DNA of 64,000 bases from Synechococcus sp. HK01-R (GTDB taxonomy: Bacteria > Cyanobacteriota > Cyanobacteriia > PCC-6307 > Cyanobiaceae). The stretch covers positions 1 to 64,000 of the forward strand of contig NZ_CP059059.1 of the NCBI RefSeq assembly GCF_014217855.1. Direction: 5' to 3'. Below are positions 38,074-42,278 of the stretch, in pieces (positions within the stretch are counted from its first letter, which is position 1; the number at the start of each line of letters is the position of its first letter). The notes below the pieces were generated by a model, which did not search any database, was not told the origin of the DNA, and saw nothing but the letters and a program-made list of their open reading frames with translations. The translations under genes and the position numbers were made by a program.

Positions 38074-38711
38074 TCGAGGCCAAACCGCGCCGCCAGGGCC
38101 TGGCCCAAGAGGGGCTGCACCTCCTCCACTGTCAAGCCTGGAAGCCAGTCGCTCAGTCGCCCCACCGGACGACCGCTCAACCCGCAGGGCACGACGGCCT
38201 CAAAACCTTCGAGATCACAATTCACGTTGAGTGCGAGCCCGTGCTGGGTGATCCAGCGGCGGCAACCAACCCCAATCGCCGCCACCTTGGCGCCGTCCAA
38301 CCAGACCCCGGTGAGGCCTTCGATCCGCTCACCCTGCAGCTCCAGAAGCTCCAGCACGTCGATCACCACCGCTTCCAACTCACGCAGGTACCAGTGCAGA
38401 TCAGGCTGATGCCTGCGCAGATCAAGCACTGGATAGGCCACAAGCTGACCGGGCGCATGGTGCGTTACCTCCCCTCCCCGATCGATCCGATGCAGGGGCG
38501 CCGGAGGGTGGGAGGGATCAAAGCGCAGATGCTGCTCACTGGCACCACGGCCAAGGGTGTAGCAGAGGGGATGCTGCAGCAACCAAACAGCCTCGGGGTG
38601 GGCCGCTCCCGGCTGCGCCAACAGCTGCTCCTGCCAGGAGCGCTGCCAGTTCCAGGCCTCTGAAAATGACACAGGCGAAGCAGGCTCAAAAAGAAATGCC
38701 GCAGCCTGCAT
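38058..38711 (-). CDS. lipB: Octanoyl-[acyl-carrier-protein]:protein octanoyltransferase (LipB)
   Basis: 217 residues from ATG 38711; a longer start at 38786 would run into the divergent gene. Motifs: [29 protein letters not shown], the conserved Lys in [10 protein letters not shown], and the catalytic Cys in VPCGLSG. It moves octanoyl from ACP onto lipoyl domains, the first step of lipoate synthesis. The E2 of PDH is encoded on the same strand downstream. Confidence 0.95.
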
Positions 38712-38768
38712 TGCCCCCTGGTTTGGCGTCTCTAGGTTGCGGATATCGTCTGGCACCGGAGGGATGCC

Positions 38769-39356
38769 GTGAAGCTGCTGATCCATGGTCGCAATCTCGA
38801 ACTGACCCCTGCTCTGCGCGACTACACCCAGTCAAAGCTGGAGCGGGCGGTGCAGCACTACAACGACATGGTCAAGGAAGCGGATGTGCATCTTTCCGTA
38901 GCCCGCAACCCGAGAGTTCCCCAGCAAACAGCGGAGGTGACCGTCTTCGCCAACGGCACCGTGATTCGCGCCCAGGAACGCAGCGAAAACCTCTACGCCA
39001 GCATTGACCTGGTTGCCAACAAACTCTGCCGACAACTGCGTCGGTTTAAGGAGCGCCACAGCGACCATCACCACAGCCATGGCCATCGCGCCAGCGAGAC
39101 GCCCCCCACCGATGCGGTGACCAGTGAGGCACCCATCGATGGCTCGCTGCTCGACGGCAAGGAGGCCCAACTCCCTGAGCCCGGGGTGCGTCGCAAATAC
39201 TTCGCCATGCCACCGATGCGCATGGAGGAAGCCCGCCATCAGCTCGATCTGATCGATCACGACTTCTACTTCTTTCGTGATGCGGAGAGCGGTGAGCTGC
39301 AGGTGATCTATCGCCGCAACCACGGTGGCTACGGCGTGATTCAGGCTCGGGACTGA
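38769..39356 (+). CDS. hpf: Long-form ribosome hibernation promoting factor (LrtA-type)
   Basis: 195 residues, GTG start ([20 protein letters not shown]). N-terminal S30AE/YfiA domain (1-100), a His-rich linker ([14 protein letters not shown], about 97-112), and the C-terminal dimerisation domain ([37 protein letters not shown]). Cyanobacterial LrtA transcripts are light-repressed and the protein preserves inactive ribosomes. The His cluster in the linker is unusually dense. Confidence 0.95.
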
Positions 39357-39393
39357 TTACGGGCTTCCAGCCCGGCTCCCGCGCCAGGATTCC

Positions 39394-40104
39394 ATGCCAC
39401 CAGTGCCGCTTCCGACCCGCCGGCAGGATCTGCCTGAACTGGCCCCCCTGATCCACCAGGCCCTGCTGGATCCCCACCTGACGCCCGAACAGCTGCAGGA
39501 GGGCTGTGACGCGGCGCGGCAACTTGGGATGGGTGGGCTCTGCACCAGCCTGCGTCATCTGCCAATGCTGCGGGAACGGCTTGGTGCCCCTGGTGCAACC
39601 CGACTGATCGCCACCATTGCCTTCCCCTTCGGTGGCCTCCCTAGCGAGCTGAAGCAGGCGGAAGCGGAATGGGCAGCAGAGCAAGGGGCAGACGCCCTGG
39701 ATGTGGCCCCTGATCTGGCCGCATTAGCGACCGGGGATGGCAATCAGTTCGCAGAGGAGCTTGCCGCCCTGGGCGCGATCGGCCTTCCGATCACGGTGGT
39801 GCTCGACCTGAACCGCCTGGCTGACGATCGGCTGGAACTAGCGGTTGAAGCGGCCCTCGATGCCGGAGTCAGCGCCCTACAGAGTGGCCCTGGCTTCGGG
39901 CCAGGGGTCACACCAGCCCAGATCCAGCGCCTGCGAGGACTCTGCCGCGCGCGCTGCGGGATCAAAGCCGTGGGCGGTATTCAGCAGCTGGAGACCTGTG
40001 CGGCGCTGATCGAAGCCGGTGCAACAGCACTGGGCACAAGCCATGGCCCTCAGTTGCTTCAGGAGCTGCGCCGCCCCTCCTCAGGCGGCTCCCATGGGGA
40101 CTGA
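39394..40104 (+). CDS. DeoC-family protein with the Schiff-base lysine apparently replaced
   Basis: 236 residues with a DeoC-like TIM-barrel sequence: ATRLIATIAFPFGGLP, LDVAPDLAALATGD, TVVLDLNRLAD, and the C-terminal Lys in GIKAVGGIQ. In deoxyribose-phosphate aldolase the Schiff-base Lys lies in VKTSTGF. The aligned segment here is ALQSGPGFGPG, with Gln in its place. The second conserved Lys is kept. By eye this argues against ordinary aldolase activity, so deoC is not assigned as a gene name. Its TGA overlaps recO's ATG by 11 nt. Confidence 0.78.
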   Translation: MPPVPLPTRRQDLPELAPLIHQALLDPHLTPEQLQEGCDAARQLGMGGLCTSLRHLPMLRERLGAPGATRLIATIAFPFGGLPSELKQAEAEWAAEQGADALDVAPDLAALATGDGNQFAEELAALGAIGLPITVVLDLNRLADDRLELAVEAALDAGVSALQSGPGFGPGVTPAQIQRLRGLCRARCGIKAVGGIQQLETCAALIEAGATALGTSHGPQLLQELRRPSSGGSHGD

Positions 40105-40879
40105 GCGACGCCTCGAGGGTTTAGCGCTGAAGGTGGGCCCCCTCGGAGAACACGATCGACTGCTCACCCTGCTGAGTCGGGAATCGGGAGTGATCCGACT
40201 GGCTGTTCCCGGAGCCCGCAGGCCGCGCAGCAGCTTGGCCGCAGCGGTGCCCCTCACCCAACTGGACTTGCAGGTGGTCGGCCAGCGAGGTCTCCCACGG
40301 ATCCGGCAGTTGCGGGTGCAGCACAGCTTCAGCGCCGTCGGACAGCGGCTGGAAACCCTGGCCGGTGCCCAGGCGCTGGCGGAACTTTGCATCGCCCTGG
40401 TGGCCGGTGACGATCCGATGCCAGGACTCCTGGAGATGGTATTGCTGCATCTGGAGCGGCTGGAGCAGTGGAGTCGGCTCTTACCACCCCAACCGAGCCT
40501 CGCCCTGGCCGGCACGGTGCAGGCCTGCGTGCACCTGCTTGCCCTCGGCGGCTATGGGCTGCCGCTTCAAAGCTGCTGCCGCAGTGGCTCCGCCCTGATA
40601 CCACCCATTGGCCAGTGGGACTGGCGCTGCAGCCTTCTGGCGGAGGAAGGCTTTGCCATCGACCGCCAACCGGGGGCCGCGATTCAGCTCAACCCATCGG
40701 AACTGGCCCTCCTGCAGCGACTCCCCAGGGCCGAGCTCCCCCACCGACGCGATGGTGAGCTGATGGGACCAGTCGATGTCTGGCTACGCCTGCTCACGGT
40801 TGTGGAGTGCTGGATCAGGGCCCATCTGCCCCGGCCGGTCCGTTCCCTCGCCATGGTGCGGGAGGCTGGGCGATCATGA
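40094..40879 (+). CDS. recO: DNA repair protein RecO
   Basis: 261 residues from ATG 40094 (MGTERRLEGLALKVGPLGEH), which overlaps the end of the DeoC-like gene. An N-terminal OB fold (DRLLTLLSRESGVIRLAVPG) is followed by a helical region and Cys residues (SCCRSG). RecO loads RecA on SSB-coated gaps with RecR. A longer start at 40019 would lie inside the upstream gene and lacks homology. Confidence 0.92.
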   Translation: MGTERRLEGLALKVGPLGEHDRLLTLLSRESGVIRLAVPGARRPRSSLAAAVPLTQLDLQVVGQRGLPRIRQLRVQHSFSAVGQRLETLAGAQALAELCIALVAGDDPMPGLLEMVLLHLERLEQWSRLLPPQPSLALAGTVQACVHLLALGGYGLPLQSCCRSGSALIPPIGQWDWRCSLLAEEGFAIDRQPGAAIQLNPSELALLQRLPRAELPHRRDGELMGPVDVWLRLLTVVECWIRAHLPRPVRSLAMVREAGRS

Positions 40880-40898
40880 CCCGGTCACGGCAGCCACT

Positions 40899-42278
40899 TT
40901 GAGCGGTCCATCTCTGAACACCCCGGAACCAGCCCTACCGACCGGGGGCAATCCAGAAGGGGGACGTGGTCTGCAGGCCGTTCTCAGGCTTGAGGATTTC
41001 CGCAAACTCTGGATCGGCCAAATCTTCTCCCAGCTGGCCGACAAGTTCTACATCGTGCTGATGGTCTTCTTGATCGATCAGCACCTGCTGCTGACGCAGC
41101 AGCACAACGGGGTCCTGGCGAATGTCGCGTCCGACTACGGCTTCGACATCAGCACCCGCACCCAAGTGATCACGCTGCTGGCCACCGGAATCTTTGTCGC
41201 CAACACCATTCCCGCCATGGTGCTGGGAAGCGTGGCTGGGGTCTGGGTGGACCGCTGGCCCAAGCGTCGGGTGATGGTGGCCTCCAACGGCCTGCGGGCG
41301 CTCCTGGTGTTGCTCACACCGCTCTGTCTGATCCCCGGCCCCCAGATCCTCGGATTGCCCTGGGGCTACTGGGGACTCCTTGGGATGACCTTTCTGGAGT
41401 CAATCCTGACCCAGTTCTTCGCACCGGCGGAACAAGCCGCGATCACGCTGCTGGTGCCAGGAGAACACCTGCTCGCTGCCAACTCGCTGTACCAAACAAC
41501 GAGCATGGGCGCCACGATCGTGGGCTTCGCCCTTGGGGAACCGATCCTTCGCGCCCTCAACCTGGCCTCGGAGCGGCTCGGTATTCCCGGTGGGGAATTC
41601 ACTCTGCTGCCCTTTTGCTACGGCATGGCGGCTCTGAGCCTGCTGGCGATCCGGCGGGATGAGCCCCCCCGAACCAGCTCCGGACGCTCCGTCTGGCAGG
41701 AGATCGGCGAAGGTGTGCAGGTTCTCAGGCACTGTCCGACCGTGCGAAGCGCCATGGTGCATCTGGTGCTGCTCTACAGCCTGCTGGCGGCCCTGTATGT
41801 GCTGGCCCTCCAGCTCGCCGCCCTGATCACCAACCTCGGCCCCTCCGGCTTTGGCACTCTGCTGGCCATGAGTGGCCTGGGCATGGCCGTGGGCGCTGTA
41901 CTGACCGCCCAACTCGGCCATCGCTTCAGCCGCCGCCGCCTGACGGCAGCCGGTCTGGGAACGATCACCTGGTCGCTGCTCCTGCTCAGCCAGTTCAAGG
42001 GCTCCCTGAGCGGGACCCTGGGCCTCTGCGGAATCCTGGGCGTAGGTGCTGCCCTCGTGGCGATTCCAGCCCAGACCACGATTCAGGAGGACACCCCTGA
42101 ACACCAGCGGGGGCGCGTGTTCGGCCTGCAGAACAATCTGATCAACATCGCCCTCAGTCTTCCGCTCGTGCTGGCGGGGACCCTAGTGAGCCGTGTGGGC
42201 CTCTCCCCGGTGCTGGGACTGCTGGCGATCCTCGCTCTGATTGCTGCACTCGTGGAGCGCCCCTGGAAGCGCTGCTAA
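40899..42278 (+). CDS. Major facilitator superfamily transporter
   Basis: About 459 residues; start uncertain (TTG 40899 is favoured; an in-frame start at 40776 would run through recO). About twelve membrane helices beginning FRKLWIGQIFSQLADKFYIV, with the MFS loop motif in VDRWPKRRVMVASNG. It resembles the three-component-type MFS group often labelled drug or lysophospholipid transporters; substrate unknown. It follows recO by about 20 bp and is probably cotranscribed. Confidence 0.85.
   Translation: MSGPSLNTPEPALPTGGNPEGGRGLQAVLRLEDFRKLWIGQIFSQLADKFYIVLMVFLIDQHLLLTQQHNGVLANVASDYGFDISTRTQVITLLATGIFVANTIPAMVLGSVAGVWVDRWPKRRVMVASNGLRALLVLLTPLCLIPGPQILGLPWGYWGLLGMTFLESILTQFFAPAEQAAITLLVPGEHLLAANSLYQTTSMGATIVGFALGEPILRALNLASERLGIPGGEFTLLPFCYGMAALSLLAIRRDEPPRTSSGRSVWQEIGEGVQVLRHCPTVRSAMVHLVLLYSLLAALYVLALQLAALITNLGPSGFGTLLAMSGLGMAVGAVLTAQLGHRFSRRRLTAAGLGTITWSLLLLSQFKGSLSGTLGLCGILGVGAALVAIPAQTTIQEDTPEHQRGRVFGLQNNLINIALSLPLVLAGTLVSRVGLSPVLGLLAILALIAALVERPWKRC

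Follow-up and report, generated by a model that had tools for sequence, protein, structure and literature searches.

A DeoC-type protein of picocyanobacteria, encoded next to recO, that lacks the Schiff-base lysine and probably serves another role

The window, by which we mean the whole stretch of 64,000 nucleotides analysed here (positions 1 to 64,000 of contig NZ_CP059059.1 from Synechococcus sp. HK01-R), encodes a homologue of the deoxyribose-phosphate aldolase (DERA) DeoC from which, as read from the alignments, the Schiff-base lysine has certainly been lost. Because this residue is gone, the ordinary DERA reaction has very likely been lost as well, and since the glutamine that replaces it is itself almost perfectly conserved, the picocyanobacterial protein probably has another job next to recO. 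An earlier note on this DNA had proposed that the aldolase activity may be lost or that the protein may have taken another role. The first proposal can be sharpened, in that the loss of the lysine is certain and that of DERA activity likely. The second draws support from the near-invariant Gln, the joint changes in the pocket, a dN/dS ratio of about 0.07 and further lysine losses elsewhere, but the Schiff base may instead have moved to a second lysine, K191.

The gene, its neighbours and its active-site residues

The open reading frame (39394-40104, forward strand) begins with ATG, ends with TGA and is flanked as follows:

38769..39356, forward strand: upstream neighbour, a ribosome hibernation factor of the hpf/lrtA type (PF02482, PF16321, TIGR00741)
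39394..40104, forward strand: DeoC/DERA-fold protein of 236 amino acids without the Schiff-base lysine (TIGR00126, AlphaFold2, VIA)
40094..40879, forward strand: recO (PF11967, PF02565), overlapping the end of deoC (40104) by 11 nt, with the ATG at 40094 as the chosen start codon

The position in front of recO to which the earlier note had pointed is borne out, as the recO frame opens inside the end of deoC. A scan of 38600-41000 for promoters and terminators found nothing. The NCBIfam deoC model TIGR00126 matches the window protein with 100.6 bits (E 7.7e-29) over model positions 1-209 of 211, which establishes homology with DeoC over residues 15-221, and yet the score lies under the equivalog cut-off of 117.3 bits; a Pfam search of the protein gave no match at 1e-3. 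This cut-off is missed by five of 24 genomes, every one of them from the clade that carries the glutamine (hereafter the Q clade), while three more Q-clade genomes score above it (117.6, 118.2 and 137.5 bits).

When aligned by HMMER with solved DERAs (8qps, 1j2w, 1mzh and 6d33, among the matches listed), the LQSGPGF segment of the window protein falls on the (L/I/V)KTSTGF motif, and MAFFT alignment with E. coli DeoC gives the same placement. The Lys-to-Gln exchange that had been read from ALQSGPGF against VKTSTGF is thereby confirmed by two alignment methods and by a CAG codon at 39880-39882. The residues of interest are the following:

39454..39459, forward strand: His21-Gln22, equivalent to E. 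coli Asp16-Leu17; Asp-His in the lysine-bearing sisters (row alignment)
39700..39702, forward strand: Asp103, equivalent to E. coli Asp102 (MAFFT); an acid, Asp or Glu, in 74/74 clade rows
39793..39807, forward strand: stretch with Thr134 and Asp138, equivalent to E. coli Lys137 and Glu141, both exchanged in the clade (row alignment)
39880..39882, forward strand: Gln163, equivalent to E. coli DeoC Lys167, codon CAG, at the end of strand beta-6 (HMMER, MAFFT, AlphaFold2)
39889..39891, forward strand: Pro166, equivalent to E. coli Thr170; Asn in 55/60 rows and Pro in the window's row only
39964..39966, forward strand: Lys191, equivalent to E. coli Lys201, on strand beta-7, one of two lysines (MAFFT); Lys in 72/74 clade rows

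The window protein hence retains D102 and K201 of DERA (as D103 and K191), but has Gln163 in place of K167, and H21, T134, D138 and P166 where the lysine-bearing rows have D16, K137, E141 and T170. The glycines G171, G204 and G205, which we take to be the phosphate binders of E. coli DERA, are present as G167, G194 and G195.

Two trivial explanations for Gln163 were rejected. No lysine can be aligned to this position because K87 and K191 are the only lysines of the protein and each fits a conserved column of its own, K87 the row-invariant Lys column after the FP(F)G motif and K191 that of K201; an alternative alignment with a Lys at 163, which would have overturned the earlier note's reading, consequently fails. 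A sequencing error or chance exchange at residue 163 does not account for Gln in 73 of the 74 clade rows, in which the codon is CAA in 51 rows, CAG in 22 and ATA in one.

The AlphaFold2 model, built with 96 sequences, is a barrel with a mean pLDDT of 94.8 in which the sixth strand (161-163) terminates at Q163 and the seventh (189-193) includes K191. It has the TIM-barrel DERA fold: VIA superimposes it on 6d33_E with Z 33.7 and an rmsd of 1.4 over 213 aligned residues, and DERAs top both structure searches, the best 50 Foldseek and best 48 VIA rows being DERAs or proteins engineered from DERAs. One might then ask whether the enzyme simply works as an ordinary DERA without K167, a reading to which the surviving TIGR00126 match of 100.6 bits and the retention of D102 and K201 would lend themselves. 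We regard this as extremely unlikely, given that K167 is the Schiff-base residue on strand 6 of the E. coli enzyme (PMC4725968, as far as its accessible text goes) and that K167, together with K201, is kept in 19 of 19 non-cyanobacterial DeoC controls. These comprise seven DERAs from viral contigs, which are distant (22-29% identical), and 12 plasmid copies chosen from 30 of 242 matching records.

At an E value of 0.001, each of 24 genomes has exactly one deoC match; no second DERA was found, the matches under the cut-off reaching at most 18.9 bits, and neither do lysine-less genomes outside the clade have a second copy over the cut-off. The only PF01791 match in the window genome, at 306342-307130, reads as a fructose-bisphosphate aldolase of the DhnA/FbaB type and is not matched by the deoC model, so that it was rejected as a second DERA. 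The 24 cyanobacterial genomes, the window genome included, likewise gave no thymidine-phosphorylase C-domain (PYNP_C) and no deoB over the cut-off, with weak partial deoB matches of 18-24 bits in 14 of them, while PYNP_C and over-cut-off deoB were recovered in 9 and 6, respectively, of 14 control genomes. Since the lysine-bearing cyanobacteria among the 24 are without PYNP_C and over-cut-off deoB as well, even the intact cyanobacterial DeoC is apparently not part of the classical deo pathway.

Distribution and phylogeny of the lysine loss

A homologue is present in 108 of 119 relative genomes. Our first set of aligned sequences (rows), drawn from all 108 genomes plus 17 named loci, divides into the Q group, with 60 rows (59 Gln, 1 Ile), 16 picocyanobacterial rows that bear the lysine, 40 rows from other lysine-bearing cyanobacteria, and five other rows without the lysine; the truncated L036, L052 and L082 and the very divergent L127, from the same genome as L200, were left out of the 60-row group. 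Where names are available, the Q group consists of Synechococcus, Prochlorococcus and metagenome-assembled genomes (MAGs) of both, and the named lysine-bearing picocyanobacteria are a Cyanobium, two Synechococcaceae MAGs, Synechococcus sp. HJ21 and one 'Cyanobacteria bacterium'. Where we speak of marine, Cyanobium-like or Prochlorococcus-like lineages, the labels are presumed from named relatives and genome size, and the habitats from general knowledge. With the motif columns excluded, the Q group forms a single branch (SH-aLRT 100) in a tree of 119 rows on which the lysine changes three times, and Lys167 is kept in all 16 lysine-bearing sister rows.

A wider search gave matches in 207 of 214 class-level genomes. 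Seventy rows taken from it, 30 automatically and 40 by choice and with some genomes repeated from the first sample, have Lys (67), Gln (2) or Met (1) at position 167, and 15 further picocyanobacterial loci have Gln (14) or Lys (1). The survey of picocyanobacterial homologues that had been proposed along with the original observation thus amounts to 74 rows from the window's clade, 71 of them distinct in sequence (L021/L037, L044/L062 and L022/L045 are repeated genomes among the loci), with Gln163 in 73.

In a FastTree phylogeny of 204 cyanobacterial rows (123 K, 76 Q, 4 M, 1 I), from which L127, L081, L076, L129 and the three fragments L036, L052 and L082 were left out, lysine changes to another residue four times: in the picocyanobacterial clade, in family f4 (Met, four rows), in family f11 (Gln, two rows) and in genus g105 (Gln). 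Support for the four lysine-less groups is 97-100. The tree comes with long-branch warnings, however, and if only its well-supported branches are counted, no more than two changes are forced; four separate losses are thus the best reading of the sequences, not a proof. The case for the window's clade is independent of this count, and our assessment of it is hence unaffected by a drop from four to two forced changes.

The other lysine-less groups differ among themselves. In family f4 (L093, L096, L101 and L160), K167 is replaced by Met and D16, D102, K137, E141, T170 and K201 are all kept. Within genus g105, L174 (G202) and L178 (G171) have Gln at 167 and L177 (G185) has Lys, so that this loss is perhaps recent. 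In L091 (G101) and L099 (G082), D102, K167 and K201 are lost together, to N, Q and H. The losses of the lysine may have had different outcomes. G101, of family f11, encodes a KaiC identical to 1u9i/2gbl over 483 aligned residues; we take these entries to be the KaiC of S. elongatus PCC 7942 and refer to this copy as the S. elongatus type.

The gene order is not particular to lysine-less copies. In the first set, a downstream recO of the same orientation accompanies 59 of the 60 Q rows, 15 of the 16 picocyanobacterial rows with the lysine, all five other lysine-less rows, and 26 of the 40 lysine-bearing outgroup rows from other cyanobacteria, and hpf lies upstream of deoC in every Q-clade (60/60) and every lysine-bearing picocyanobacterial row (16/16). 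A larger count places recO at most 151 nt downstream in 8 of 8 lysine-less rows from outside the picocyanobacteria (11 such rows were counted, of which three are fragments; the remaining eight all have recO downstream), and at most 400 nt downstream in 70 of 107 lysine-bearing ones, none being found in the other 37. As lysine-bearing rows have recO downstream too, the deoC-recO linkage is probably older than the loss of the lysine. No fusion of deoC with recO or hpf occurs among loci L001-L214.

A rebuilt pocket and its possible functions

Within the 74 rows of the clade, Gln163 is found in 73, Lys191 in 72 (it is replaced in L043 and L055) and an acid at 103 in all, and every row is free of stops over residues 18-219. 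Gln163 and Lys191 persist where identity to the window protein has fallen to 27%. The very divergent copies are the nine of genus g18 (L200-L208), one of which was measured at this identity; they come from genomes of 1.6-1.7 Mb and have a QFGDGFG motif with Gln and Lys as in the rest of the clade. Gly167, Gly194 and Thr215 are invariant in a 69-row set. Around these fixed points, the Q clade departs from its sisters, mostly by D16 to H/N, H17 to Q, K137 to T/R/N, E141 to D/N and T170 to N. His21 is found in 47 and Gln22 in 58 of 60 Q rows, where the sisters have Asp (15/16) and His (16/16); Lys at 134 and Glu at 138 are each absent from all 60 Q rows and present in all 16 sisters. As judged from the aligned residues, the pocket was rebuilt in steps, because the basal rows L038, L039 and L056, along with L211-L213 (which share the genus code of L056), retain Asp at 16 and yet have the other changes. 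The lysine-bearing sister L059 (G035) has Glu in place of the K201 equivalent.

Over 53 shared pairs from the clade, the median dN/dS is 0.071 for deoC, 0.036 for hpf and 0.089 for recO, against 0.33, 0.23 and 0.40 in the lysine-bearing sisters. Since all three genes have the higher ratio in the sisters, part of the low deoC value in the clade can be put down to the lineage as a whole. The window's own subclade (the window and L004-L006) counts against uniform constraint: dN of deoC exceeds that of recO there (0.196 vs 0.103 for L004-L005, 0.100 vs 0.014 for L005-L006), and Pro or His stands at 166 where 55 of 60 rows have Asn. This faster change and the broken Asn166 motif may reflect relaxation or further change.

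Could deoC in this clade be a decaying DERA, useless in itself and kept in frame for translational coupling to recO? The overlap of recO with its 3' end, the faster evolution within the window's subclade, and the description of DERA as conserved across cyanobacteria yet non-essential in S. elongatus PCC 7942 (PMC5464585, in the portion available to us) speak for such decay. The retention of Gln163 and Lys191 at 27% identity, a dN/dS of about 0.07, 74 stop-free frames out of 74 and a predicted fold of high confidence make it, in our view, a very improbable explanation.

The near-invariance of K191 fits catalysis as well as binding, and for this reason the main rival to our preferred reading is a relocated Schiff base. 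Lys191 on beta-7 would form the imine with the help of Gln163, Asn166 and Asp/Glu103, and the protein would still be an aldolase, perhaps for another substrate. K191 in 72 and an acid at 103 in 74 of 74 rows are compatible with this, and an engineered KDPG aldolase, K133Q/T161K, is said to be active after a move of its lysine from strand 6 to strand 7. In the E. coli enzyme, strand 6 carries K167 and strand 7 carries K201, but there K201 lowers the pKa of the active lysine (both from the accessible part of PMC4725968), so that a relocated lysine would need a new partner. Moreover, D16, K137 and E141, kept in the lysine-bearing sisters, are mostly gone, and the S. elongatus-type copy is kept despite the loss of both lysines and Asp102. 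We consider a relocated Schiff base unlikely. The portions at hand of two aldolase reviews (PMC2431125, PMC3962226) contain nothing on the engineered lysine move in KDPG aldolase.

Alternatively, a pocket formed by His21, Gln22, Asp/Asn138, Gln163, Asn166 and Lys191 might belong to a different enzyme that acts on a sugar phosphate without a Schiff base, for instance as an isomerase, lyase or hydrolase. Changes of chemistry are frequent among TIM barrels with this phosphate site, and several of the new polar residues are conserved jointly. An invariant new catalytic pair, however, is missing, as His21 is found in 56, Asn166 in 55 and Asn at 138 in 19 of the 69 rows, and the immediate neighbours are hpf and recO. 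A new enzymatic step of this kind strikes us as rather improbable.

Our preferred reading, which we judge to have about an even chance of being correct, is that of a former DERA that now binds a sugar phosphate non-covalently and functions as a partner or sensor. In the ancestor of one picocyanobacterial clade (Synechococcus, Prochlorococcus), a class I DERA would have exchanged K167 for Gln and ceased to perform its ordinary reaction. Its barrel survives, and so do the acid at 102, the second lysine (K201, here K191) and the glycine loops by which DERAs hold the phosphate. The Gln is now strongly selected for in a pocket that has been rebuilt and carries less charge; a phosphorylated ligand, presumably pentose-like, could be bound there without covalent catalysis. 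The protein would thereby act as a ligand-dependent partner or sensor co-produced with HPF and RecO, a functional tie to RecO being conjectural. Two observations incline us to non-covalent binding. Around K167 the charged residues have disappeared, yet the phosphate-site glycines, the acid at 103, K191 and the new Gln have stayed; and the S. elongatus type still carries, at the same locus, a copy with the triple loss. A second role may already have been present in lysine-bearing cyanobacteria; this would explain how the lysine could be lost repeatedly without loss of the gene.

Taken further, the recO-adjacent 'deoC' may have a second function throughout the phylum, one that requires the barrel and the phosphate pocket but not the aldol chemistry, with the repeated lysine losses and the picocyanobacterial Gln163/Lys191 pocket as its outcome. 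We advance this extension tentatively and would sooner doubt than assert it, and the same caution applies to its version with four losses, as counted on the best tree in marine-type picocyanobacteria, in the S. elongatus type and in two further groups. If true, the Gln163/Lys191 pocket could, for example, belong to a sensor of sugar phosphates that is linked to RecO-dependent repair or to ribosome hibernation. The proteins annotated as deoxyribose-phosphate aldolase in picocyanobacteria of the Synechococcus/Prochlorococcus clade and in S. elongatus probably do not perform that reaction, and a catalytic lysine lost more than once from a gene that is kept would constitute a natural experiment that hints at a hidden function.

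Comparison with known systems

Our literature search, at the level of titles and abstract openings, with most subscription papers outside its reach, found none on lysine loss in cyanobacterial DeoC. In the text accessible to us, deoC is among the Prochlorococcus transcripts enriched during the opening hours of an extended dark period and is filed under sugar degradation (PMC5974335), and Sll1776 of Synechocystis is treated as a DERA (PMC5053081).

With bona fide DeoC (TIGR00126; E. coli 1jcl, B. halodurans 6d33, and 1mzh), the window protein shares the barrel, the equivalents of D102 and K201 and the glycine phosphate loops; it differs by the absence of K167, the exchange of D16, K137, E141 and T170, and a score below the equivalog cut-off. 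The window genome has neither a thymidine-phosphorylase C-domain nor a deoB over the cut-off. The lysine-bearing cyanobacterial DeoC (e.g., L063) has in common with it the order hpf-deoC-recO in picocyanobacteria, or deoC-recO in 26 of 40 others, and, where tested, a single match per genome as in the Q clade, but it differs in having D16, D102, K137, E141, K167 and K201 in nearly all rows. Closer in one respect is the S. elongatus type (L091, L099), which shares K167Q, recO downstream and the lack of a second copy with the window and yet sits on a separate branch of the tree, has D102N and K201H in addition and keeps K137 and E141. Its model (D102N/K167Q/K201H) is a confident barrel all the same (pLDDT 96.1), and this 'DERA' is probably not a DERA. 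Finally, TgDPA of Toxoplasma (3qyq, 4eiv), which reportedly is inactive on dR5P and misses key catalytic residues, shares its fold with the window model (VIA Z 25). TgDPA is eukaryotic and is not known to be part of an operon. The window protein, for its part, has lost catalytic residues and kept its fold, and would be a pseudoenzyme of the TgDPA kind if it has another function.
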